NCBI GenBank assembly: GCA_945901855.1
Contig: CAMDLT010000005.1
Location: 1 to 64,000 of the forward strand
DNA: 64,000 nt
Direction: 5' to 3'
Source: Asaia bogorensis
Lineage (GTDB): Bacteria; Pseudomonadota; Alphaproteobacteria; CACIAM-22H2
Shown piece by piece: positions 1 to 20,317 of the stretch. Position 1 is the stretch's first letter, and each line of letters starts with the position of its first letter. A program made the position numbers and the translations under genes. The notes below the pieces were generated by a model that was not told where the DNA came from, did not search any database, and worked only from the letters and a program-made list of their open reading frames with translations.

Positions 1-110
1 GCGCTCGCAATCGATATGCCGAACCGCTCGGCGGCCGCTCGGCGCGAAAGCCCGCCCGCAACCGCCGCCACAACACGAGACCGCAAATCCTGAGAAAGTG
101 ATCGCGCCAT
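1..110 (-). mobile_element. IS630-type transposase, N-terminal fragment (runs off window start)
   Basis: Reading the reverse strand from an ATG at 110 gives an open frame of 36 codons up to the window edge. It begins MARSLSQDLRSRVV and continues through an AGGLSRRAAAERFGIS segment. That is the N-terminal helix-turn-helix typical of IS630/Tc1-mariner-like transposases, which cut and paste DNA at TA targets with a DDE catalytic domain (not visible here, it lies outside the window). A short inverted repeat, GTACTGG at 113-119 and CCAGTAC at 128-134, sits just upstream of the start. The element end should lie a little further to the right. Family call from the N-terminus only. Confidence 0.75.
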
Positions 111-847
111 CCGTACTGGCCTCCACTCCAGTACAAAGCTTGAATCACAATTCGCGGCAGTTGGGAATCCCCTGCGATTCCTTCAGCTCGGAATTTGCTC
201 TAACTATCCGCACGCCTGCGCCGCCGACCGAGCAATTGCCGGGGTTCTCCGAACTCACCGACGATGACCGCACGACGCTTGAAAACATCCCGGTCATCCC
301 AGACGATGCGCGCAAGGAGATCGGCGGCGTTGTCGCGGGTGTAATCGTCGAAAGCATTCAGTACGATGACGGCCGCACCGACAATCGCGGCACGGAAGCG
401 ACTGTGACCGGCAACAACATCGTGGCGAAGGCGTGCGACGAGGCCATTGCAAATTCGCGAATCGCCGACATCATCGACCACACCGGCGGCGCTTCGAAGG
501 GTGGCGCAGGGAAGAGCTACATGACCGAGAAGATGGTCGAGACCCTGGACCGCAATCGGCGTCCTGACTATTCGATGGGCGTGAACAAAGAGCTGGAGGG
601 TGAGTTCCCGTCGGGCCATATCAATACTGTCTCTACCCGTGCCGACGGCACTTTGACGGGCCGCGAGCAGCGCGCCTACGATGCGATAAAGCGTGCCGCC
701 GAAAAGCTGGACCCCGAGCTCGTGCAAACGATTCCAAAATTCAAAGAGGGCGACGACCCTGAGGAATACGCAAAGAAGGCGCGGGCGGCGTGCGACAAAG
801 TCGTCGGCGCATTGGAAAAACTCATTCTCGATTCGAAGCGTCCGTAG
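98..847 (+). CDS. hypothetical protein, probably 5'-truncated or misstarted next to the IS
   Basis: I do not recognise this protein. The longest frame opens with a GTG at 98, inside the divergent transposase gene, so the first 20 or so residues are probably IS sequence and the real start is unknown. There is no internal in-frame ATG until the KSYMTEKM region; a TTG at 161 is possible. The product is hydrophilic, with no membrane segment or signal peptide. It is rich in acidic and Lys residues and has a C-terminal segment predicted by eye to be helical (EYAKKARAACDKVVGALEKL). It is followed after 15 bp by another unknown gene on the same strand, probably as a pair. It may be the remnant of a gene interrupted by the insertion sequence. 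Confidence 0.45.
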   Translation: MIAPSVLASTPVQSLNHNSRQLGIPCDSFSSEFALTIRTPAPPTEQLPGFSELTDDDRTTLENIPVIPDDARKEIGGVVAGVIVESIQYDDGRTDNRGTEATVTGNNIVAKACDEAIANSRIADIIDHTGGASKGGAGKSYMTEKMVETLDRNRRPDYSMGVNKELEGEFPSGHINTVSTRADGTLTGREQRAYDAIKRAAEKLDPELVQTIPKFKEGDDPEEYAKKARAACDKVVGALEKLILDSKRP

Positions 848-862
848 AATTGAGGCCGCGTT

Positions 863-1657
863 ATGGACTTGAAAGAACTCATGTGGGAAGGCCCCGACCC
901 GATCGTCCCGCCGAATTTGGGGCACGAGGTTAGGTTCGCGTGGTGCCTGGAGGATTGGCGGCAGTTCGAGCTATCGGTGCGCGCCGCATATCCAAACGTC
1001 TTCTTCTACGAAAAGTTTCTGCGTTCCGAGCGGTCGGGCGAAATCGAGCCGAAATTGATGCGCATCGAGCGATTGGACCAGTCGCGTCCCGGTCGCGTCA
1101 TCCAAATGCTGTTTCCCGATCCGGCTTGGGAGCCGAAACTGATTCGAGGGCCGAACCAATATGGCAAGCCCGAATGGGATCTCGATCAGTATTGGTCCCC
1201 ACGCATTTGGATGGGGCCGCCAACGGCGGGGCCACGCGAAAATTTTGTCGGATGGGAAGGCGCCGAGGATGCAAATTTGCCCGCCTGGCCCGGGCGCTCC
1301 ATTCAAAGTTCCTACCGCCGCCAGTTCGAAAACGAGGTGACGTGCCAGTCCAAGATTCTAAATCTTGCGCGCAAACGCGGCCGTCGGATGGTCATCGTGT
1401 TTTGGAAGTCGTTCGCAGACTACCAGGCCGGAATTGGCAAGGTGCCCGAAAGAATTTTCCCAAAGAACTACTATGTATCCGAAGGCGTCCTTGACTGGTA
1501 TCGGCGAAGTCCGAAACACATGCTGGGCGTCAATTCCATGGCAGGTCGTGATTGGACGTTTGCCTATCTTCCCCCCGAAGACGTGCCCGATCATTTTTGG
1601 GGCGACGTCAAAAAACCTAAATGGGTCCTCGAAGCCATCGAGAAATACCGGCGATAG
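863..1657 (+). CDS. hypothetical protein (264 aa)
   Basis: Unrecognised soluble protein starting at an ATG 15 bp after the previous gene, with which it probably forms a two-gene unit. It is unusually rich in Trp and Tyr, spread along the whole length (for example WCLEDWRQFE and DQYWSPRIWMGPP), and has a basic stretch NLARKRGRRMVIVFWKSF near residue 175. There is no signal peptide or transmembrane segment. The two-gene unit next to an IS630 end suggests an accessory locus, but I see no toxin, nuclease or phage motif that would justify a function. Codon use is GC-rich like the neighbours, although a few AT-rich codons occur. Confidence 0.6.
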   Translation: MDLKELMWEGPDPIVPPNLGHEVRFAWCLEDWRQFELSVRAAYPNVFFYEKFLRSERSGEIEPKLMRIERLDQSRPGRVIQMLFPDPAWEPKLIRGPNQYGKPEWDLDQYWSPRIWMGPPTAGPRENFVGWEGAEDANLPAWPGRSIQSSYRRQFENEVTCQSKILNLARKRGRRMVIVFWKSFADYQAGIGKVPERIFPKNYYVSEGVLDWYRRSPKHMLGVNSMAGRDWTFAYLPPEDVPDHFWGDVKKPKWVLEAIEKYRR

Positions 1658-1874
1658 CCCTGCGCGCAGCGGCGGCCATCGCGGACATGCGGGCTGTTTG
1701 GCGCCGGTAACGCCGTGAAACGGAATTTTCGGCGTACCGCCGTGTTTTTGCCATTTTTGAACCTATTTATATCCGTATCGACCGCCTCGGCTTCCTTGGG
1801 GCATACTTGGACTAAGTTGCCCGACGGCCGAAACGCCGCTTTCCTTTTTTCTGGATCTCCAAGGAGTTCCCAAC

Positions 1875-3443
1875 GTGATTGTCCGAGCGCTTGCATCCGT
1901 AGCCCTGCTGTTCGCTTTGGCCCAACCCGGCACCGTGCAGGCCCAAGCGCCCGCACAGGCCCAAAGCCCCGCGCGCGCCAACACGCTCGCCCCCAACACG
2001 TTTGCCGATTTGGCCGAACGCCTTTTGCCGTCGGTCGTGAACATCCAGGTTGTCACGTCGCAAGCCGCCCAAGCGGGACCGCCCGGCGCGGGTCCGCGGC
2101 CCCCGGTTCCCGGCAACCCCCAGCAGCGCCGCCCCGAAGCCCAGCCGCAATTTCCGCCGGGCTCGCCGTTCGAAGATTTTTTCAAGGAATTCTTCGACCG
2201 TCAGGGGCGCGGCCCCGACCAGCCGCAGCAGCAGCGTCGCGGACAGTCGCTCGGTTCGGGCTTCGTGATCGATCCGGCGGGCTACGTTGTGACCAACAAC
2301 CACGTCATCGACGGGGCCGAGGAAATCCGCGTCGTGTTCCACGACAACCAAAGCCTGGTCGCCAAGCTGATCGGCAAGGATGCGCGCACCGACCTTGCTT
2401 TGCTGAAGGTCGAAAGCCGCACGCCGCTGGCGGCCGTCAAATTCGGCGACAGCGATCGCGCACGCGTGGGCGATTGGGTCGTTGCCATCGGCAATCCCTT
2501 CGGACTGGGCGGCAGCGTCACACAGGGGATCATCTCAGCGCGCCAGCGCGACATCAATGCTGGCCCTTACGACGATTTTCTGCAAACCGACGCCTCGATC
2601 AATCGCGGCAATTCGGGCGGGCCTTTGTTCAATCTTCAAGGCGACGTGATCGGCATCAATACGGCGATCTATTCGCCGACCGGCGGTTCGGTCGGGATCG
2701 GCTTTTCGATTCCGTCGGCCATCGCCAGCAATGTCGTGGCGCAGCTGCGCAAGGACGGACGCGTGCGGCGCGGCTGGCTTGGCGTCAACATCCAGAGCGT
2801 CACCGACGAAATCGCCGAGGGCGTCGGCCTTGATCGGGCGCGCGGCGCGCTTGTGGCGCGGGTGCCCGACAACGGCCCTGCGGCGCGCTCGAACATCCGT
2901 GCGGGCGACGTGATTTTGAAGTTCGACGGCAAGGACGTGACGGATATGCGTCGCCTGCCGCGTCTGGTCGCCGAAACGCCCGTCGACAAAGCCGTCAAAG
3001 TGGAAGTTTGGCGCAATCGCGCGCCCGTCACGCTCGACGTGCGTTTGGGCGAGCTTGAGGACGAGCAGGCGGCCCAAGCGGGGCCGGGCGGCAATCGGCC
3101 CCCGCAGCAGGGCCAAGCGCCCGCAGCGCCGCGCAACGAGCTCGACGTATTGGGCATGACGCTCGCCCCCGTTTCGAGCGAGCTGCGCCAGCGCTTTACG
3201 CTGCCCGAACGCCAGCGCGGCGTGGTGGTGACGGCCGTGGTCGAAGGGTCGGTCGCGCAGGAACGCGGCATTCGTCCGGGCGACGTGATCGTGGAAGTGG
3301 CGCAGACCGAAGTGGCGCAACCCGCGCAAGTGCAGGAGAAAGTGCGCGAGCAGCGCGGCCAGGGCCGCCGCTCGGTGCTGATCATGGTCGAGCGCGCGGG
3401 CGAACAGCGTTTTGTCGGCTTGCCCGTCGAACCGCGCGGTTGA
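1875..3443 (+). CDS. Do/HtrA-family periplasmic serine protease (DegP/DegQ type)
   Basis: Protein quality-control endopeptidase of the periplasm. The GTG start at 1875 is preceded by AAGGAG and gives a signal peptide ending near VQAQA (residues 20-25). A Pro/Gln-rich linker (about 65-125) precedes the trypsin-like domain. The triad is visible: His143 in NNHVIDGA, Asp173 in ARTDLALL and Ser247 in NRGNSGGP. Two PDZ domains follow (about 285-375 and 425-510), the first containing RRGWLGVNI. Length 522 aa is normal for the family. A second Gln/Pro/Ala-rich spacer separates the PDZ domains. It is monocistronic, ending 15 bp before the convergent ubiX. Which member (DegP, DegQ or MucD) cannot be decided from sequence alone. 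Confidence 0.93.
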   Translation: MIVRALASVALLFALAQPGTVQAQAPAQAQSPARANTLAPNTFADLAERLLPSVVNIQVVTSQAAQAGPPGAGPRPPVPGNPQQRRPEAQPQFPPGSPFEDFFKEFFDRQGRGPDQPQQQRRGQSLGSGFVIDPAGYVVTNNHVIDGAEEIRVVFHDNQSLVAKLIGKDARTDLALLKVESRTPLAAVKFGDSDRARVGDWVVAIGNPFGLGGSVTQGIISARQRDINAGPYDDFLQTDASINRGNSGGPLFNLQGDVIGINTAIYSPTGGSVGIGFSIPSAIASNVVAQLRKDGRVRRGWLGVNIQSVTDEIAEGVGLDRARGALVARVPDNGPAARSNIRAGDVILKFDGKDVTDMRRLPRLVAETPVDKAVKVEVWRNRAPVTLDVRLGELEDEQAAQAGPGGNRPPQQGQAPAAPRNELDVLGMTLAPVSSELRQRFTLPERQRGVVVTAVVEGSVAQERGIRPGDVIVEVAQTEVAQPAQVQEKVREQRGQGRRSVLIMVERAGEQRFVGLPVEPRG

Positions 3444-3458
3444 CGCGCGGGTACGCGT

Positions 3459-3490
3459 TCAAACGCTGGGCGTCTCGCCCCAGCGTTTGA
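3459..3490. terminator. 12-bp perfect hairpin between convergent degP-like gene and ubiX
   Basis: TCAAACGCTGGG (3459-3470) pairs perfectly with CCCAGCGTTTGA (3479-3490) around an 8-nt loop. It lies 15 bp after the protease stop and includes the ubiX stop codon. It could end transcription from the left, but there is no T-tract on either side, so it may only protect transcript ends. Confidence 0.35.
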
Positions 3491-4031
3491 CGAGCCCGCT
3501 TTCGATGTCGAACAGATCGAGGGCGCGGCCGACCGTATGGGCCACCAAATCCTCGATCGTTTTGGGGCGTGCATAAAAAGCCGGGACTGGCGGCAGGATG
3601 ACGGCCCCGATTTCGGCGGCTTGCGTCAATGCGCGCAAATGCCCGACATGCAGCGGGGCCTCGCGCGCGAGCAGCACCACGCGGCGCCTTTCTTTGAGCT
3701 GCACGTCGGCCGCGCGCGTGAGCAGCCCGGTCGTGTTGCCGTAGGCAATCTCCGAGACCGAGCGCATCGAGCAGGGCGCCACGACCATGCCGAGCGTCTT
3801 GAACGAACCCGACGAGATCGCAGCGCCCAGATCTTCAGCCGAATGCACGACGCTGGCGAGGCTTGCGACGTGTTTGGCGGTGTAGTCCGTTTCGTAGGCG
3901 AGCGTCATGGCCGCCGTTTTGGTCATGACGAGATGGGATTCGATCTTCGCGTCGCGCAGCGCTTCGAGCATGCGTACGCCGTAGATCGCCCCCGACGCCC
4001 CCGAAATGCCGACAATGAGCCGTTTGGTCAT
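3459..4031 (-). CDS. ubiX: flavin prenyltransferase UbiX
   Basis: Makes the prenylated FMN cofactor used by the UbiD decarboxylase in ubiquinone synthesis. The 190-aa protein matches the usual length. The N-terminus, KRLIVGISGASGAIYGVRML, is the Rossmann-like FMN-binding start of the family. AISSGSFKTLGMVVAPCSMR contains the conserved SGS and PCS segments, and the later VLLAREAPLH and MPPVPAFY-like (LPPVPAFYARP) motifs are also typical. Its start lies 50 bp from the 3' end of serB, in the same direction, so the two are probably co-transcribed. Quinone supply fits a respiring and photosynthetic cell, but this is a housekeeping gene. Confidence 0.94.
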   Translation of the reverse strand: MTKRLIVGISGASGAIYGVRMLEALRDAKIESHLVMTKTAAMTLAYETDYTAKHVASLASVVHSAEDLGAAISSGSFKTLGMVVAPCSMRSVSEIAYGNTTGLLTRAADVQLKERRRVVLLAREAPLHVGHLRALTQAAEIGAVILPPVPAFYARPKTIEDLVAHTVGRALDLFDIESGLVKRWGETPSV

Positions 4032-4081
4032 CGAGAACTCCCTTGCAGCGCCACTCGCGTGGCTGTGGACCCGCGCGCGAC

Positions 4082-4963
4082 TCAGCCGACAAATTCGGTG
4101 CGCGTATAGCCTTGCAGATACAAAAGCGCCGTCAGATCGCCATGCCGGATATTGAGGCGGGCCTGCGCCGCGACCGCCGGTTTTGCGCGGAATGCGACGC
4201 CGAAACCGGCGGCGCCCAACATGGCAAGGTCGTTGGCGCCGTCGCCGACCGTGATCGTCGATTCGAGGGGAGCGCCGATCTCGCCTGCGAGTTTTTCCAG
4301 CGTCGCGAGTTTGGCCTCGCGGCCCAGGATCGGTTCGGCAACCGTGCCCGCGAGCTTTGCGTTGGCGATGTCGAGCCGGTTGGCAAAATCCTGCTCGAAA
4401 CCGAGCCGCTCGCGCACAAGGGCCGTGAAAAACGTAAAACCGCCCGACACAATGGCCGTACGAGCCCCGTTCGCGCGCATCGTGGCGGCAAGCGTTTGGG
4501 CCCCCGGCACGATGCGAATGCCGCGCGCGGCGCGGTCGAGCAGATCGACGGGTTTGCCTTCGAGCAGGGCGACGCGCGTGGCAAGCGCTGCGCGGAAATC
4601 GAGTTCGCCGTTCATCGCGCGCCTGGTGATCTCGGCGACATGCGCGCCGATGCCCAAAAGCTCGGCCATATCGTCGAGCATTTCGTTCTCGATCAGCGTC
4701 GATTCCATGTCGGCAACCAGCAGGCGTTTCTTGCGACCCGCTGCCGGCACCAGATTGGCATCGACGGGCGCTTGGCCGATCGATGCGCGCGCACGTTCCA
4801 GAATGCGTGCAGGATCGTCCGGCTTGGGGTAAAGCTCGACCGCAATGCCAGGGGCAAGCACGCGAGTCGGTTGCTGCACGCCAACGGCACTTTCGATCTT
4901 GTGCACGTCGATTGCGGGCTGAGCGGGATCGGCGGTAAGGACAAGGACTGGGGCAGGGTTCAT
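4082..4963 (-). CDS. serB: phosphoserine phosphatase SerB
   Basis: Last step of serine synthesis, hydrolysing O-phosphoserine; cytosolic HAD-superfamily enzyme. The start at 4963 (MNPAPVLVLTA) gives 293 aa, a normal length with an N-terminal ACT-like region of about 75 residues. HAD motif I is seen as ADMESTLIENEM (nucleophile Asp85, with Glu in place of the second Asp of DxDxT, a variant I also associate with alphaproteobacterial SerB). Motif II is IVSGGFTFF, and motifs III/IV are in the last quarter, including GDGANDLAML. It is divergent from miaA with only 12 bp between the start codons, so each promoter must lie in the neighbouring coding region or in that gap. Confidence 0.93.
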   Translation of the reverse strand: MNPAPVLVLTADPAQPAIDVHKIESAVGVQQPTRVLAPGIAVELYPKPDDPARILERARASIGQAPVDANLVPAAGRKKRLLVADMESTLIENEMLDDMAELLGIGAHVAEITRRAMNGELDFRAALATRVALLEGKPVDLLDRAARGIRIVPGAQTLAATMRANGARTAIVSGGFTFFTALVRERLGFEQDFANRLDIANAKLAGTVAEPILGREAKLATLEKLAGEIGAPLESTITVGDGANDLAMLGAAGFGVAFRAKPAVAAQARLNIRHGDLTALLYLQGYTRTEFVG

Positions 4964-4975
4964 GGCGGCGGGATC

Positions 4976-5929
4976 ATGGTGAAGCGCAAGTCGGAAGGCA
5001 AGCCGGGCGAAAAGCCAAACGCCGTGATCGTCGGCGGACCGACCGCGTCGGGCAAGTCGGCGGCCGCGATCGCGATGGCGCAAGCGTTCGACGGCGTCGT
5101 GATCAACGCGGATTCGATGCAGCTTTATCGCGAGCTCGACGTGCTGACGGCGCGCCCCTCGCGCGCCGACGAAGCCGTTGTGCCGCACAAACTTTATGGC
5201 GTTTGGTCGGCCGCTTCGCACGGCACGGTCGGGCGCTGGCGGACAGCGGCGCTGGCCGAAATCGAGGCCGCCAACAAAGCGGGCAAACTTGCGATCGTGT
5301 GCGGCGGAACGGGCATGTACCTCAAATCCCTCGTCGAGGGGCTGAGCCACGTGCCGGAAATCCCGCCCGAAATCCGCATCGCCGCGCGGCGCCGCATGGA
5401 CATGATCGGCGCCCCGGCGTTTTTTGCCGCCCTCAAAAAGCGCGACCCCGCAGCGGGCGCGAGGCTTGGATCGACCGACCGCCAGCGCATGCTGCGCGCT
5501 TGGGAGGTGCTCGAGGCGACCGGGCGCACGCTGGCCGATTTTCAGGCCGAAGATCCGCCGTCGCGCGATGTTTGGCCAAGTTTGGTGCTGCTGCCGCCGC
5601 GCGATGTGCAGCGCCAGACCGTTGCCGCACGGGCCTTGCGCATGATCGAAGCCGGGGCGGTTACCGAAGTGCGCAACTTGCTGGCGCTCGGCTTGACGGA
5701 CGATCTGCCCGCCATGCGTGCCTTGGGGGTCCGCGAAATTGCAGGATTTTTGCGCGGCGATTACGATTTAGATCATGGAATCAATCTTATGGCGGCCGCC
5801 ACGCAGCGTTTTGCCAAGCGTCAGGCAACCTGGTTTCGCGGCCAAATGAAGCATGCGACCTTCCTGACGGCGCAATATTCGGAAAGTTTGATGCCAGAGA
5901 TTCGCACGTTTATTAAACAAATCGGTTGA
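4976..5929 (+). CDS. miaA: tRNA dimethylallyltransferase MiaA
   Basis: Adds a dimethylallyl group to A37 of UNN-reading tRNAs. The ATG at 4976 gives 317 aa, typical for the family. The P-loop GGPTASGKS spans residues 20-28 and the substrate-binding DSMQLYREL starts at 46. GGTGMYLKSL is the next family signature and RMLRAWEVLEATG follows. The C-terminus carries the ALGVREIAGFL and AKRQATWFRGQ segments expected of MiaA. No RBS is obvious between the divergent serB start and this ATG. The gene ends 65 bp before ilvB, on the same strand; a promoter-like sequence lies at its very end. Confidence 0.95.
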   Translation: MVKRKSEGKPGEKPNAVIVGGPTASGKSAAAIAMAQAFDGVVINADSMQLYRELDVLTARPSRADEAVVPHKLYGVWSAASHGTVGRWRTAALAEIEAANKAGKLAIVCGGTGMYLKSLVEGLSHVPEIPPEIRIAARRRMDMIGAPAFFAALKKRDPAAGARLGSTDRQRMLRAWEVLEATGRTLADFQAEDPPSRDVWPSLVLLPPRDVQRQTVAARALRMIEAGAVTEVRNLLALGLTDDLPAMRALGVREIAGFLRGDYDLDHGINLMAAATQRFAKRQATWFRGQMKHATFLTAQYSESLMPEIRTFIKQIG

Positions 5930-5954
5930 CGCTCTGCCGGACGGCTTCTATGGT
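5926..5954 (+). promoter_or_regulatory. candidate sigma70-type promoter for ilvBHC
   Basis: TTGACG (5926-5931), a 17-bp spacer and TATGGT (5949-5954) start at the miaA stop codon and lie 40 bp before the ilvB ATG. It matches the spacing of housekeeping promoters. No leader peptide with a run of branched-chain codons or terminator/antiterminator pair is visible in the short leader. Confidence 0.35.
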
Positions 5955-5994
5955 CCGCGCCCTTGAACGGCATTTTTTGAAAGGAAACCCGACA

Positions 5995-9454
<3,460 letters not shown>

Positions 9455-14458: not shown

Positions 14459-15328
14459 ATGCCGACAAAAATCGAAAAAGACGCCGTCACGGGCACCGAT
14501 ACGACCGGCCACGAGTGGGACGGCATCAAGGAGCTCAATACGCCGCTGCCTAAATGGTGGCTCTACACGTTCTACGCGACGATCGTGTGGGCGCTCGGCT
14601 ATTTCGTGCTGTATCCGGCGTGGCCGAGCCTCTCGGGCCACACGCCCGGCATTCTGGGCTGGACGATGCGCGGCGAAATTGCCGAACAGCTCGTGCAGGC
14701 CAACGCGGCGCAAGCGCCGTTTGTGAACCGCATCGCCGCCGCCTCGCTCGAAGACATTTCGAAGTCGACCGATCTGCGCAATTTCGCGATGGCCGGCGGG
14801 CGTTCGGTCTTCGCGGAAAACTGCGCGCCGTGCCATGGATCGGGCGGTGCCGGCAGCAAGGGCTTTCCCAACCTCGTCGACGACAATTGGATCTGGGGCG
14901 GCAAGCTCGACGACATCCACACGACGATCCAGCACGGCATTCGCAATGCGAATCCGGAATCGCGCATCTCGCAGATGCCGCGCTTCGGCACCGACGAAAT
15001 TCTCACGCGGGCCCAGATCGACGATGTGGCGGAATACGTGCTGTCGCTGTCCAAGCGCGCGCGCGATGCCGCGGCCGCCAAACGCGGCGAGGCGGTCTTC
15101 GCCGAAAACTGCGTTGCCTGCCATCAGGAGGGCGGCGTCGGCAATCCCGAAATGGGCGCGCCGAACCTTGCGGCGAACATTTGGCTCTATGGCGGCGACA
15201 AAGCGACGCTCGTCGAAACGATCCGCTATTCGCGCCAGGGCGCCATGCCCGCTTGGAGCGAGCGTCTGGATGCGGCGCGCATCAAGATGCTGACGGTATA
15301 TGTCCATGCGCTGGGCGGCGGCGAATGA
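14459..15328 (+). CDS. ccoP: cbb3-type oxidase subunit III (diheme cytochrome c)
   Basis: Diheme c-type cytochrome, entry point of electrons into cbb3 oxidase; 289 aa. An N-terminal segment with GHEWDGIKELNTPLPKWW is the family signature, followed by a membrane anchor (FYATIVWALGYFVLYPAW). The two heme motifs are CAPCH at 122-126 and CVACH at 218-222. The Met ligands are likely in ISQMPRFG and GAMPAWSERL. The protein ends YVHALGGGE. The 3' end is next to ccoG, whose start codon is ambiguous and may overlap. Confidence 0.97.
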   Translation: MPTKIEKDAVTGTDTTGHEWDGIKELNTPLPKWWLYTFYATIVWALGYFVLYPAWPSLSGHTPGILGWTMRGEIAEQLVQANAAQAPFVNRIAAASLEDISKSTDLRNFAMAGGRSVFAENCAPCHGSGGAGSKGFPNLVDDNWIWGGKLDDIHTTIQHGIRNANPESRISQMPRFGTDEILTRAQIDDVAEYVLSLSKRARDAAAAKRGEAVFAENCVACHQEGGVGNPEMGAPNLAANIWLYGGDKATLVETIRYSRQGAMPAWSERLDAARIKMLTVYVHALGGGE

Positions 15329-16826
15329 CGTGCCCGACGATCTGAATATCCACGACGCGGTTTCGACCAAGACGCTCAAGGCGGCGGCGCCGCTCTATAC
15401 AAGCCGCATCAAGGTCCACCCCAAAGACGTCCAGGGTCGCTATCGCACGATCAAATGGGCGATTCTGGGTTTGTGCCTTGCGGTCTACTATCTGGCGCCT
15501 TGGCTGCGCTGGGATCGCGGCGCGTATGCGCCCGATCAGGCCATCCTGATCGATCTGCCGGGCCGCAAAGCCTATTTCTTCTTTCTCGAGATCTGGCCGC
15601 AGGAAGTTTATTTCCTGACCGGATTGCTGGTGTTGGCTGCGATCGGCCTGTTTCTGGCGACGTCGTTGTTCGGGCGCGTATGGTGCGGCTATGCCTGCCC
15701 GCAAACCGTGTGGACCGACCTGTTCATGCTGGTCGAACGCTGGATCGAGGGGGATCGCAACGCGCGCATGCGCTTGGACCAGGCACCCGCTTCGGCCGGC
15801 AAATTCGCCAAACGCACGGCCAAGCATGTCGCGTGGTTGCTGATCGCGTTTGCCACGGGCGGGGCTTGGATTCTTTATTTTGGCGACGCGCCCACGCTGG
15901 TGGGCGAGATTTTCACCGGCCGCGCGTCGTTGAACGACTATTTCTTCATCGGCCTTTTTGCCGCCACGACCTACACCCTGGCGGGCCACGCGCGCGAGCA
16001 GGTCTGTACCTATATGTGCCCGTGGCCGCGAATCCAGGGCGCCATGCTCGACGACCAATCCTATGTGGTCACGTACGAAGATTGGCGCGGCGAGCCGCGC
16101 GGCAAACTCGCGAAGACAGCCGCAGGCATCGATCCGTGGCTCGGTCGCGGCGACTGCGTCGACTGCAACGCGTGCGTCGCAACCTGTCCGACCGGCATCG
16201 ACATTCGCGACGGCCAGCAGCTTGAATGTATCGGCTGCGGCCTGTGCATCGACGCGTGCGACGCGGTGATGGACAAGGTCGGTCGTCCGCGCGGTTTGAT
16301 CCGTTTCGATACGCTCGACAACCAGCGTATGCGCGCGGCGGGGAAACCGGCAGTGCATAAATTCGTGCGGCCGCGCACGATCCTTTATGCGAGCGTGTTG
16401 GCCGCCGTCGGCGGAATTATGCTAACGGCCTTGCTGATGCGCAGCACGGTCGAGCTTGGCGTGCAGCGCGATCGCAATCCCAATTTCGTGCGCCTGGTCG
16501 ACGGCGGCGTTCGCAATGCCTACACGATCCATGTACTCAACAAAACGCACGAGCCGCGCGACTATACGCTGTCGGTCGAGGGGCTTGCGGGCGCCCGCAT
16601 TTCGGCCGTGGGCGACGAGCGCGCTGCCGACCGTGTCGCGCTGTCGGCAAAACCCGATGCCGTCGCCAGTGCACGCGTGTTCGTAACGCTTCCCGCAGGG
16701 TTCGCCGCCGCGCGCGAATCCACGTCCATCGAATTCGTGCTGCGCCAGTCCGGCGGTCCCGACCGGGCCGAGCGCAGCGCCGTTTTCGTCGCCCCCCACG
16801 ACGAAAGATCAAGGAGCCGTCCATGA
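15300..16826 (+). CDS. ccoG: cbb3 oxidase assembly ferredoxin-like protein CcoG/RdxA (FixG)
   Basis: Membrane-bound polyferredoxin that supports copper insertion into cbb3 oxidase; recent work on the family implicates Cu(II) reduction. About 508 aa from ATG 15300, which overlaps ccoP by 29 bp; ATG 15306 or a GTG at 15330 just after the ccoP stop are alternatives. Several membrane helices, WCGYACPQTVWTDLF and CTYMCPWPRIQGAM carry conserved Cys, and two 4Fe-4S motifs lie at CVDCNACVATCP and CIGCGLCIDACD. After the last helix comes an Ig-like FixG C-terminal domain. The last 120 or so codons are duplicated downstream (see the chimeric ORF). Confidence 0.95.
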   Translation: MSMRWAAANDVPDDLNIHDAVSTKTLKAAAPLYTSRIKVHPKDVQGRYRTIKWAILGLCLAVYYLAPWLRWDRGAYAPDQAILIDLPGRKAYFFFLEIWPQEVYFLTGLLVLAAIGLFLATSLFGRVWCGYACPQTVWTDLFMLVERWIEGDRNARMRLDQAPASAGKFAKRTAKHVAWLLIAFATGGAWILYFGDAPTLVGEIFTGRASLNDYFFIGLFAATTYTLAGHAREQVCTYMCPWPRIQGAMLDDQSYVVTYEDWRGEPRGKLAKTAAGIDPWLGRGDCVDCNACVATCPTGIDIRDGQQLECIGCGLCIDACDAVMDKVGRPRGLIRFDTLDNQRMRAAGKPAVHKFVRPRTILYASVLAAVGGIMLTALLMRSTVELGVQRDRNPNFVRLVDGGVRNAYTIHVLNKTHEPRDYTLSVEGLAGARISAVGDERAADRVALSAKPDAVASARVFVTLPAGFAAARESTSIEFVLRQSGGPDRAERSAVFVAPHDERSRSRP

Positions 16827-17314
16827 CCGCCGATAGCGCCGCCGCGATCGGGTTCCGCAATCAGTATCTTCGGCTCGTCTTTCCAAGCGTGCAGCGCGAT
16901 CGCAATCCCAATTTCGTGCGCCTGGTCGACGGCGGAATTCGCAACGCCTACACGATCCACGTGCTCAACAAAGCGCACGAGCCGCGCGACTATACGCTGG
17001 CCGTCGAGGGGCTTGCCGGCGCCCGCATTTCGAGCGTGGGCGACGAGCGCGCTGCCGACCGTGTCGCGCTGTCGGCAAAACCCGATGCCGTCGCCAGTGC
17101 ACGCGTGTTCGTAACGCTTCCCGCAGGGTTCGCCGCCGCGCGCGAATCCACGCCGATCGAATTCGTGCTGCGCCAGTTCGGCGCTCCCGACCGGGCCGAG
17201 CGCAGCGCCGTTTTTGTTGCCCCCCACGACGAGAGATCAAGGAGACGTCCATGACCGCCGACAGCGCCGCCGCGATCGCGTTCCGCAACCGCTATCTTTG
17301 GCTTGTCTTTCCCA
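16459..17314. repeat. tandem duplication of about 428 bp (ccoG 3' end plus ccoH 5' end)
   Basis: Two direct copies abut: roughly 16459-16886 and 16887-17314. Each holds the last part of ccoG from GTGCAGCGCGATCGC onward, the short junction with its AAGGAG site, and the first 20 or so codons of ccoH. I count by eye about 26 mismatches over about 425 positions, so close to 94 percent identity, with over 60 bp in the middle identical. The 428-bp offset is not a multiple of three, yet both copies stay open in the needed frames. Confidence 0.9.
16823..17254 (+). CDS. chimeric ORF: ccoH N-terminus fused to a second copy of the ccoG C-terminal domain
   Basis: The 143-aa product starts MTADSAAAIGFRNQYLRLVF, nearly the same as the N-terminus of the true CcoH, and then switches in frame to QRDRNPNFVRLVDGGIRNAY, the Ig-like tail of CcoG, continuing to the same end as CcoG. 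It arose from the tandem duplication described above. Its ATG overlaps the ccoG stop (ATGA) and its stop overlaps the ATG of the real ccoH in the same way, so translation coupling is kept. The CcoH membrane segment is missing, so the product should be soluble in the cytoplasm unless it has another anchor. It could be a harmless by-product or an extra assembly factor; the sequence does not say. Confidence 0.75.
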   Translation: MTADSAAAIGFRNQYLRLVFPSVQRDRNPNFVRLVDGGIRNAYTIHVLNKAHEPRDYTLAVEGLAGARISSVGDERAADRVALSAKPDAVASARVFVTLPAGFAAARESTPIEFVLRQFGAPDRAERSAVFVAPHDERSRRRP

Positions 17315-17733
17315 TGATGTTTGCGGTCGTGCTGACCGCAAATATCGTGCTCGTCTATTTTGCGCTGGCGAGCTGGCCGGGTCTCGCGTTCGAAAATCCG
17401 TCCGAACGCGGACGGAAGTTCAATCAAGTTTTGCAGGCGGAAGAAAAAGAAAGCGGCCTCGGCTGGCAGCTTTCGGTACGCCACGTCGGCGACAGCATCG
17501 TCGTCGCGCTCAGCGATGCGTCCGGCGCGCCGCTGACCGATGCGACGTTGTCGGCGACGCTCGCGCGTCCATTGGGGCAAATTGCGGACCGACCGCTCGA
17601 CCTGCGCGCCGAGGCGCCTGGGATCTACCGAGCGCAGATCGTGCTTGGCGCACCGGGGCAGTGGGAAGTGCGCATCGCCGCCGTGCGCGGCGCCGATCGC
17701 TGGCACAACGCAATTCGTTTTTTGGCGAACTGA
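17251..17733 (+). CDS. ccoH: cbb3 oxidase assembly protein CcoH (FixH)
   Basis: Single-span membrane protein needed for stable cbb3 oxidase assembly; 160 aa, usual length. The N-terminal RNRYLWLVFPMMFAVVLTAN leads into the membrane helix (about 20-42), then ASWPGLAFENPSERGRKFNQ, the FixH signature with the conserved NxxxRGxxFN region. A periplasmic beta-rich domain completes it (GWQLSVRHVGDSIVVALSDA). The ATG overlaps the stop of the upstream chimeric ORF. ccoI follows 11 bp downstream. Confidence 0.93.
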   Translation: MTADSAAAIAFRNRYLWLVFPMMFAVVLTANIVLVYFALASWPGLAFENPSERGRKFNQVLQAEEKESGLGWQLSVRHVGDSIVVALSDASGAPLTDATLSATLARPLGQIADRPLDLRAEAPGIYRAQIVLGAPGQWEVRIAAVRGADRWHNAIRFLAN

Positions 17734-17744
17734 GGGACGAGGCC

Positions 17745-20105
17745 ATGGCACCGCTCGATGGAAGCCTGCCGCTCGATGCCGGAGCTCTTTGTCGCCATTG
17801 CGGCACGCCGGTCGTGGACAGCCGCGCACGTTTTTGCTGTGCAGGCTGCGAGGCGGCTTACAGCGTCGTCAAGGGGCTCGGGCTCGACGCATTCTATGCG
17901 CGGCGCGTTCAGGCCGGCACGGCCAAGACGCTGCGCCCCGAGGCCGCCCCCGATTTCGACTTTGCCGCCCGCACCACGATCGGCGACGACGGCGTTGCGG
18001 TGCTGCATTTGATGGTCGACGGGCTCTCGTGCGCAGCCTGCGTGTGGCTGATCGAAAGCGTCTATGCGCGCGAGCCGGATGTCGCCGATGCGCGCGTCAA
18101 TCTTTCGACCGGCCGATTTGCGCTCAAATGGCGCGGCGATGCCGCGCGCGCGACCGCGCTTGTCGCCCTCGTCGCGAAGCTCGGATTCCGGCTCGTGCCG
18201 TACGACCCTGCGTGCTTGGGCACGGCGCAGGATGCGGAAGAAATGCGCCTGCTGAAGGCGCTGGGCGTCGCGGGGTTTGCGGCGGGCAACGTCATGATGC
18301 TGTCGGTCGCGGTATGGGCTGGCGTTGATATGGGGCCTGCGACAAAAGATCTGCTGCATTGGGTTTCGGCCCTCATCGGCTTGCCTTGCATCTTCTATGC
18401 GGGGCTGCCCTTCTATCGCTCGGCGTGGCAAGCGTTGCGCGGCGGGCGGCTCAATATGGACGTGCCGATCGCCGTGGGCGTTACGATGACGGCGGCGATG
18501 AGCGTATCGGAAACGCTGCGCAGCGGTCCTTACGCCTATTTCGACGCCGCGTTGACGCTGCTGTTTTTCCTGCTCGCAGGCCGCTATCTCGACCAGCGCG
18601 CGCGCGGCAAGGTGCGCGCGTCGGCGGCGCACCTGCTTGCGCTTGGCCAACGCCCCGTGACGCTTCTGGGCGCGGACGGCGCGCTGCGCGCGGTCGCGGC
18701 CGACAGCGTGCGCGCGGGCGACGTCGTGTTCGTCGCGTCGGGCGAACGCGTTGGCATCGACGGAACGGTGGCCGAAGGGCGCTCGTTGGTCGATGCCGCC
18801 CTTGTGACCGGCGAAGCGATCCCGCAAGACGTGGCGCCCGGCGCCAAGGTCTATGCGGGCATGGTCAATCTCGGTTCGGCGCTGAAGATCCGCACCGATG
18901 CGACCGGCGAAGGCACGCTGCTCGCCGAAATCGTGCGCCTCGTCGAAGCGGCCGAGCGCAGCCGCGGCCGGTTCGTGGCGATCGCCGAGCGCGTGACGCG
19001 CGCCTACGCCCCGGTCGTGCATGTGACCGCACTCGCGACGTTCCTTGGCTGGCATTTCTGGCTGGGTGCCGATTGGCAGGTCGCGCTGCTCTATGCGGTC
19101 GCGACGCTCATCGTTACCTGCCCGTGCGCGCTGGGGCTTGCGGTGCCTGCCGTGCAGACGGTCGCCTCCGGGCGTCTGCTTGCCAGCCGCGTGCTGCTCA
19201 AGAACGCGACCGCGCTCGAACGCTTGGCCCAGATCGACATGGTCGTGTTCGACAAGACCGGCACCTTGACGCAAGGCCGCCCGACGTTGCGCGCCGATTC
19301 TTCGCGGGCCGATGGGGATCTGCGCTTGGCGGCCTCGCTTGCTGCGGCCTCGCGCCATCCTTTGGCGCGCGCTTTGTGCCGGGCGTGTCCCGACCAGCCC
19401 GTTTTGCCGGACGTGATCGAACATGCCGGGCTTGGGCTTGCGTGCGGCGATTTGCGGCTCGGCAGCCGCGCGTTTTGCGGCGTGGATGCAAACGCAGGCC
19501 CTGCCGACGGTCCGGAAATGTGGCTGCGCACCGGCGATGGCCGCACCCAGCGTTTTGCCTTCGACGACAGCGTGCGCGCGGATGCCGCCGTTGCGATCGC
19601 GGCGCTGCACAAGCGCGGCTACAAGTTGGCACTGCTGTCAGGCGACCGGGCGGAGACGGTGGCGGGCGTTGCCGAGAGCCTGGGAATCGACGAATGGCAT
19701 GCGGGCGTCGATCCCACGCAAAAGGCTGCGCGTCTTGCTGCCTACACCGCCAGCGGACGGCGCGTGCTGATGGTCGGCGACGGTCTCAACGACGCGCCTG
19801 CACTTGCGGCCGCCCACGCCTCCTTGTCGCCGGCCAGCGGCGCAGACATCGCCCAGATCGCCGCCGACGCCGTGTTCCAGGGCGACAAGCTTGCTCCGGT
19901 CGTCGAATTGCTTGATACCGCGCGCGCGGCGCGCCGCCTAGTCGGCCAAAATATCGCGTTTTCGATTTTCTACAATGCGGTTGCCGTCCCGCTGGCGATG
20001 CTTGGGATGGTCACGCCGCCGATCGCGGCCGCCCTGATGTCCAGCTCGTCGATCGTCGTCGTGCTGAACGCGCTGCGCTTGGCCCGGCAAAAAGGAGCGC
20101 GCTGA
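17745..20105 (+). CDS. ccoI: copper-translocating P-type ATPase CcoI (FixI)
   Basis: P1B-type ATPase delivering copper for the CuB site of cbb3 oxidase. ATG 17745 gives 786 aa. The N-terminus has a Cys cluster typical of FixI (CRHCG at 16-20 and FCCAGC at 30-35) and a metal-binding motif LSCAAC (Cys96 and Cys99). Several membrane helices follow. The transport motif TCPCALGLAVP has Cys459 and Cys461. The phosphorylated Asp is Asp503 in VFDKTGTLTQGRP, and GDGLNDAPAL is the hinge motif near the C-terminus. The upstream frame is open into ccoH but is not supported. Its stop overlaps ccoS (TGATG). Confidence 0.96.
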   Translation: MAPLDGSLPLDAGALCRHCGTPVVDSRARFCCAGCEAAYSVVKGLGLDAFYARRVQAGTAKTLRPEAAPDFDFAARTTIGDDGVAVLHLMVDGLSCAACVWLIESVYAREPDVADARVNLSTGRFALKWRGDAARATALVALVAKLGFRLVPYDPACLGTAQDAEEMRLLKALGVAGFAAGNVMMLSVAVWAGVDMGPATKDLLHWVSALIGLPCIFYAGLPFYRSAWQALRGGRLNMDVPIAVGVTMTAAMSVSETLRSGPYAYFDAALTLLFFLLAGRYLDQRARGKVRASAAHLLALGQRPVTLLGADGALRAVAADSVRAGDVVFVASGERVGIDGTVAEGRSLVDAALVTGEAIPQDVAPGAKVYAGMVNLGSALKIRTDATGEGTLLAEIVRLVEAAERSRGRFVAIAERVTRAYAPVVHVTALATFLGWHFWLGADWQVALLYAVATLIVTCPCALGLAVPAVQTVASGRLLASRVLLKNATALERLAQIDMVVFDKTGTLTQGRPTLRADSSRADGDLRLAASLAAASRHPLARALCRACPDQPVLPDVIEHAGLGLACGDLRLGSRAFCGVDANAGPADGPEMWLRTGDGRTQRFAFDDSVRADAAVAIAALHKRGYKLALLSGDRAETVAGVAESLGIDEWHAGVDPTQKAARLAAYTASGRRVLMVGDGLNDAPALAAAHASLSPASGADIAQIAADAVFQGDKLAPVVELLDTARAARRLVGQNIAFSIFYNAVAVPLAMLGMVTPPIAAALMSSSSIVVVLNALRLARQKGAR

Positions 20106-20317
20106 TGGAAGCTTTGCTGATCTTGATTCCGGTGTCGCTGCTGCTTGCAGGTGCGGGTCTGGCGGCGTTTTTGTGGTCGCTGCGCAGCGCCCAATACGAG
20201 GATCTGGAAGGGGCCGCGAATCGTATCCTGTTTGCCGACGACAAGCCCCTGCCCGAACGCCGCCGCAAGGCGGTCCCGAAAAGCGAACCGGACGTGCCCG
20301 CTACCGAAGCGCGTTGA
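20105..20317 (+). CDS. ccoS: cbb3-type oxidase assembly protein CcoS (FixS)
   Basis: A 70-aa small membrane protein, MEALLILIPVSLLLAGAGLA with one N-terminal helix, followed by the conserved FLWSLRSAQYEDLEGAANRI and LFADDKPLPERR, which are diagnostic of FixS. CcoS is required for cofactor insertion into the catalytic subunit. The start overlaps the ccoI stop. The 3' end overlaps the convergent monooxygenase gene by 17 bp. It closes the ccoNOQP-GHIS unit. Confidence 0.95.
   Translation: MEALLILIPVSLLLAGAGLAAFLWSLRSAQYEDLEGAANRILFADDKPLPERRRKAVPKSEPDVPATEAR

Follow-up and report, generated by a model that had tools for sequence, protein, structure and literature searches.

The window, by which we mean the whole 64-kb stretch of DNA analyzed, carries a cbb3-oxidase assembly cluster in the order ccoG-ccoH-ccoI-ccoS, with gene identities assigned by Pfam. 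Both ccoG and ccoH are intact despite a tandem duplication across their joint, and a hybrid reading frame is open across that joint. The features are as follows.

15300..16826, + strand: ccoG (fixG), intact, with 508 aa counted from an ATG at 15300 (the true start may lie further downstream); Pfam Fer4_18 and FixG_C; from the ORF list
16459..16886, + strand: copy 1 of the 428-bp unit, comprising the end of ccoG and the start of ccoH, with the final two bases ambiguous; from repeat search and register comparison
16607..16724, + strand: 118-bp block identical in both copies; counterpart at 17035-17152
16811..16816, + strand: AAGGAG, a ribosome-site-like hexamer before the chimera start; counterpart at 17239-17244 before ccoH
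16823..17254, + strand: chimeric ORF, 143 aa from an ATG, with ~21 residues of ccoH head followed by the ccoG FixG_C domain; from the ORF list and Pfam
16887..17314, + strand: copy 2 of the 428-bp unit, with 27 of 428 positions changed and no indels; from repeat search and register comparison
17251..17733, + strand: ccoH (fixH), intact, 160 aa; Pfam FixH, 106.6 bits
17745..20105, + strand: ccoI, P-type ATPase (context); Pfam E1-E2_ATPase and HMA
20105..20317, + strand: ccoS (context); Pfam FixS

The initial annotation had described a unit of roughly 428 bp repeated once, with about 26 of about 425 positions differing. Our repeat search independently returned a direct repeat with a spacing of 428 (copies at 16459-16886 and 16887-17314), and position-by-position comparison placed the copies in register without gaps, with 27 substitutions (16 transitions and 11 transversions) over the 428 positions. 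Since 428 was the only offset among 20-5999 in the 64-kb window with at least 80 of 100 identical bases, a chance origin was dismissed. The C terminus of ccoG is supplied by copy 1.

The two copies are preceded by GTCGAGCTTG and GTCTTTCCAA and followed by GCGTGCAGCG and TGATGTTTGC. Beyond the repeat, the copies share just a single A (16886/17314), which lies behind a mismatch. Given that the flanks share 1 nt at most, the joining appears to have been illegitimate rather than homologous, although later substitutions may have erased a very short homology.

Other repeats were observed elsewhere in this genome. On the same contig but outside the window, a tandem array at ~12370-15974 of L096 has a main period of 696 bases, a multiple of three, and probably encodes a large repetitive protein. 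Another contig carries an array at ~7826-12465 of L078 with a 237-base period and related offsets, probably another repetitive protein. L077 contains two occurrences of a short palindromic stretch, G+C-rich and terminator-like (1062-1181 and 1568-1687, a spacing of 506 bases), flanking a few 60-base repeats, and the sequence at 13143-13280 of L094 has a similar stretch 1386 bases further on (up to 91 of 100 bases identical).

The chimeric frame and its coupling signals

Relative to ccoG (frame 0), the chimera lies in frame 2 and ccoH in frame 1. Because 428 leaves a remainder of 2 on division by three, which matches the ccoG-to-ccoH frame shift (+2), the ccoH head of copy 1 is in frame with the ccoG tail of copy 2. 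The initial annotation had ascribed the chimera to an offset that is not a multiple of three; the in-frame fusion stands, but that condition is insufficient, since a remainder of 2 is required, a one-in-three outcome.

The 143-aa ORF (16823-17254) does overlap both neighbors by ATGA, as originally described, at 16823-16826 and 17251-17254. The hexamer AAGGAG begins 12 bases ahead of each ATG, at 16811 for the chimera and 17239 for ccoH. Since the joint itself was copied, however, the double ATGA is not independent evidence of function, and we rejected its preservation as proof: it comes automatically with the duplication. The same caution applies to the frame, which, as first noted, is still open. 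At the 65% G+C of the window, the other two frames through 16887-17254 are nearly or fully open (one is stop-free and one has a single stop), so openness is weak evidence. Moreover, neutral simulations with 8 to 27 mutations left no stop in 64 to 89% of cases, and the open frame was likewise rejected as proof of selection.

When the ccoH start nearest the ccoG stop was chosen by script in nine same-genus relatives, it lay 9 to 13 bases after the stop in eight and overlapped it by 4 bases in one. CcoG in the window also ends in an extra seven-residue tail, ERSRSRP (16803-16826), which spans the region of the ribosome site and reaches the ATGA overlap, whereas CcoG of the nine relatives terminates seven residues earlier. 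The overlap and the extension together appear to be unusual in the genus. Given that strict coupling is reported for 13 of the 14 ATGA gene pairs tested in Haloferax and E. coli (PMC6728339), any translation of the operon would likely include the chimera.

The predicted chimeric protein and its distribution

Residues 22-134 of the chimera match FixG_C (PF11614) at 80.8 bits against a cut-off of 25.6, covering positions 14-119 of the 119-position profile, and no other Pfam family matched at an E value of 0.01. A hydropathy scan found no hydrophobic segment, defined as a 19-residue mean of at least 1.6 (the top mean was 1.22, versus 2.28 in CcoG and 2.31 in CcoH), which bears out the earlier description of a free FixG domain without a membrane helix. 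The protein contains no cysteine, and its one methionine is the start. With FixG_C as its sole Pfam match, it has neither the iron-sulfur ferredoxin domain nor the membrane helices that mark CcoG as a cupric reductase.

The chimera was modeled with AlphaFold2 from 15 sequences, namely, the two window copies and the FixG_C tails of 13 loci from a scan of genome contigs, including Reyranella, Maricaulis, and other alphaproteobacteria. The predicted structure is all beta, with eight strands over residues 22-132 (mean pLDDT, 77.9; pTM, 0.71). Ten-residue blocks from 31 to 130 scored 84 to 91 in pLDDT with one exception at 71, so that the core stands at ~90 and the head is of low confidence. The only solved chain that matched the chimera by sequence was 2r39, a FixG-related protein (45 residues; E value, 0.00039). 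The Ig-like C-terminal domain of CcoG is described as periplasmic and of unknown function (PMC7558416). Since the chimera lacks a helix or signal-like hydrophobic segment, the free form should stay cytoplasmic, unlike the domain in CcoG.

The same chimeric ORF, or any second FixG_C match, was found in none of the 10 other genomes of the genus (11 including the window's own). Nine of these had one FixG_C match each, in open frames of 520 to 635 codons, and the tenth, which is 74% complete, had no match. The sample holds one genome per species with a nearest identity of 65%, and it therefore contains no sibling strain.

In the class sample, FixG_C exceeded the cut-off in 114 of 289 genomes, the window's own included. 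Frames below 462 codons were inspected singly and those of at least 462 codons were judged by length alone, with lengths taken from stop to stop, so that a short ORF inside a long open frame would be missed. On this basis, and setting aside G296, whose 176-codon frame runs open to the contig edge, none of the 113 other genomes had a clearly unanchored short FixG_C frame. The short frames in G121, which is open to the contig end, and G208 (390 codons) are CcoG pieces with a ferredoxin part and a helix. In G284 (190 codons), a stop lies 63 residues upstream of the match, the membrane helix is kept, the upstream sequence has no CcoG match, and the contig end is near. This locus (L075, at the end of contig 28), a ccoG tail with its helix behind non-CcoG sequence, is either a broken gene or an assembly edge. 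Matches in G123, G080, and G295 fell below the cut-off, and their N termini are leader-like and, by eye, unlike CcoG. In the phylum sample, 269 of 398 genomes exceeded the cut-off, and no frame was below 457 codons among the matches listed; these are the better matches only, and the window's chimera ranks below them, so this search was not used for counting.

Divergence and constraint between the copies

Overall, dN/dS between the copies was about 0.3, and their synonymous divergence was ~0.10 to 0.14. For the ccoG tail, the copies gave a dS of 0.096 to 0.110 and a dN of 0.035 to 0.037 (ratio, 0.32 to 0.38), and for tail and head together the ratio was 0.29 to 0.36. Simulations in which every site was neutral produced no more than 11 changed amino acids, the number observed, in only 0.14% of runs (P = 0.0014). 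The pair of copies is therefore constrained as a whole, although one partner is a working ccoG or ccoH.

Across the FixG_C domain, six same-genus orthologue pairs gave a dN/dS of 0.08 to 0.23, whereas the window's ccoG gave 0.34 and 0.28 against two of those orthologues (at a dS of 0.77 and 0.91, respectively). Because the window's own ccoG shows such values against its relatives, the raised copy-versus-copy ratio may partly be a lineage trait. We then took 0.08 to 0.23 as the ratio on the working side in tests of the chimera itself. A neutral chimera gave a P of 0.13 to 0.20 for the tail alone and 0.04 to 0.08 for tail plus head; a chimera constrained like CcoG gave 0.003 to 0.28 for the tail and 0.001 to 0.34 for both regions. 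The best-fitting dN/dS for the chimera was near 0.5. A ratio of ~0.3 between the copies is thus compatible with a chimera under constraint and with one free of it.

Four sites that at least eight of nine same-genus relatives conserve have changed, in each case on the chimera and never on the working copies. Two lie in the tail (T to A, G to A) and two in the head (R to Q, W to R), the head sites being conserved in nine of nine relatives. With four of four changes in one direction, the one-sided probability is 1 in 16, which amounts to a hint. The commoner residue at some variable sites is carried by the chimera and not by ccoG: I (V/I), A (S/A), and P (S/P).

The differences between the copies form a mosaic, with 11 on the upstream side of the 118-bp identical block and 16 on the downstream side. 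When 27 differences were placed at random, a run of at least 118 bp arose in 0.3% of 20,000 trials, and in orthologues the block does not evolve more slowly than its flanks (ratios of 0.89 to 2.07 in nine pairs). The simplest reading suggested by this pattern is partial gene conversion between the copies; another is import of the flanking segments from another strain. Either way, the divergence between the copies is a poor clock.

Readings of the duplication

We consider the best reading, and a somewhat probable one, to be an illegitimate duplication that damaged neither gene and whose product is mostly inert; of the options first proposed, a tolerated by-product agrees best with the data. In this reading, a short tandem duplication, illegitimate in origin, would have spanned the site where ccoG and ccoH overlap. 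An undamaged ccoG ends in copy 1 and an undamaged ccoH begins in copy 2, and the 428-bp offset fuses the ccoH head to the second ccoG tail. Ribosomes leaving ccoG would re-initiate first at the chimera and next at ccoH via the two ATGA/AAGGAG joints, and the resulting free cytoplasmic Ig-like domain would do little or be degraded, while occasional gene conversion with the ccoG tail may keep part of the chimera fresh. The insertion would be tolerated because nothing is broken and ccoH is still translatable, and it would cost little because both parent genes are intact.

In favor of such a by-product, ccoG, ccoH, ccoI, and ccoS are intact around the insert, flank homology is at most 1 nt, and the genus sample holds no second FixG_C. 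The placement of all four conserved-site changes on the chimera and the prediction of an ordered beta domain with no anchor also point this way. Against it, a dN/dS of ~0.3 and the absence of indels among 27 substitutions suggest a sequence somewhat better preserved than a freely drifting ORF, and the chimera has the commoner residue at some sites. Its long survival also counts against a by-product: since PMC3857721 describes tandem duplications as unstable by nature, persistence to a synonymous divergence of ~0.10 to 0.14 is odd without some benefit and thus mildly surprising.

The most interesting alternative to a by-product, although an unlikely one, is that selection maintains the open frame as a path for ribosomes between the end of ccoG and the beginning of ccoH and not for the protein; any stop codon or frameshift arising in the insert would break the coupling of ccoH and leave RNA untranslated and exposed. 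In its favor, the ATGA overlap and the AAGGAG hexamer are preserved at both joints, there are no indels, the two copies are jointly nonneutral (P = 0.0014), and such a role would permit amino acid losses at the chimera's conserved sites. However, ccoH has its own AAGGAG, so coupling may be unneeded; a tight overlap is no rule in a genus where eight of nine relatives space ccoH 9 to 13 bases past the ccoG stop; and neutral mutation alone (8 to 27 changes) left 64 to 89% of simulated frames without a stop. About equally doubtful is the broader proposal of a new cistron caught early, a coupled Ig-like protein long kept by partial gene conversion and weak selection, whether as a bridge to ccoH or as a cytoplasmic copper-handling partner.

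Slightly less likely again is a functional free Ig-like domain that is expressed and either aids or competes with CcoG or the chain of oxidase assembly. A complete FixG_C match (profile 14 to 119), a modeled beta domain with a core pLDDT of ~90, a copy-versus-copy dN/dS below 1, and what seems a long survival for a tandem copy are consistent with this proposal. On the other hand, the conserved-site losses sit on the chimera, the arrangement is absent from 10 other genomes of the genus, and the product has no hydrophobic segment and no cysteine, whereas the parent domain is described as periplasmic (PMC7558416). For the latter reasons, the role in copper delivery alongside CcoG that the initial annotation had offered is unsupported, and with zero hydrophobic segments and zero cysteines in the chimera, we rejected copper delivery as the main reading.

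We regard it as similarly improbable that a draft assembly fused two strain variants of the ccoG/ccoH joint. The genome is indeed a draft of 82 contigs (94.2% complete), the copies differ by a strain-like 6%, and no other genome of the genus among the 10 sampled shows the duplication. Nevertheless, the breakpoint appears to lack any common word on which an assembler could have joined the sequences, the window contains no N, and estimated contamination is 0.3%. The R-to-Q and W-to-R changes in the copy 1 ccoH head, at sites conserved in nine of nine relatives, would be unexpected in another strain's working ccoH, and the 118-bp identical block fits exchange within one genome. Furthermore, of 20 segments of this genome, each 20 kb long (400 kb in all), 16 had no comparable local repeat; four had some, two of them long arrays. 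The homology-free join, the chimera-side losses, and the conversion-like block all favor a real tandem, although none is proof.

Least probable is that part of one copy was imported from another strain by homologous recombination, so that the 27 differences would be no measure of age: the mosaic of 11 and 16 differences around the 118-bp block would fit, and transformation is reported to make tandem duplications (of ~100 to 900 kb in a pneumococcus; PMC3784515), but the join lacks recognizable homology, and the conserved-site losses on the chimera suggest change after duplication.

If the duplication is real, it provides a clean natural example of a coupled hybrid ORF arising from an overlapping gene pair without evident cost to the parents, and it shows how long one lasts. 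It would also offer the Ig-like domain of CcoG, a domain of unknown function according to PMC7558416, in a naturally free-standing form. More generally, a duplication across a 4-base overlap, with a length that leaves a remainder of 2 on division by three and an open joint, would yield a coupled hybrid cistron with the parents unharmed, and such duplications are a possible route to new operon genes. If the chimera is a by-product only, it has little importance beyond annotation.

Partial tandem duplication over two adjacent genes is a recognized source of chimeric genes. As in known cases, the parent genes here are intact and a hybrid ORF lies at the new joint; the ccoG/ccoH case differs in that the joint sits on a 4-base gene overlap, which gives the hybrid an inherited overlap and ribosome site at either end. 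A literature search on this class of duplication found no matching case, by which we do not claim absence from print. With the C-terminal Ig-like domain of CcoG/FixG (PF11614; 2r39), the chimera shares a sequence match over residues 22-134, but it lacks the iron-sulfur domain and the membrane anchor and would be cytoplasmic rather than periplasmic. YccM-type CcoG homologues are described as lacking the Ig-like domain (PMC7558416), and, like the chimera, they show that evolution can separate the Ig-like domain from the core of CcoG. The two differ in what is retained: in the YccM type the Ig-like part is absent, whereas in the chimera it stands alone beside a complete CcoG.
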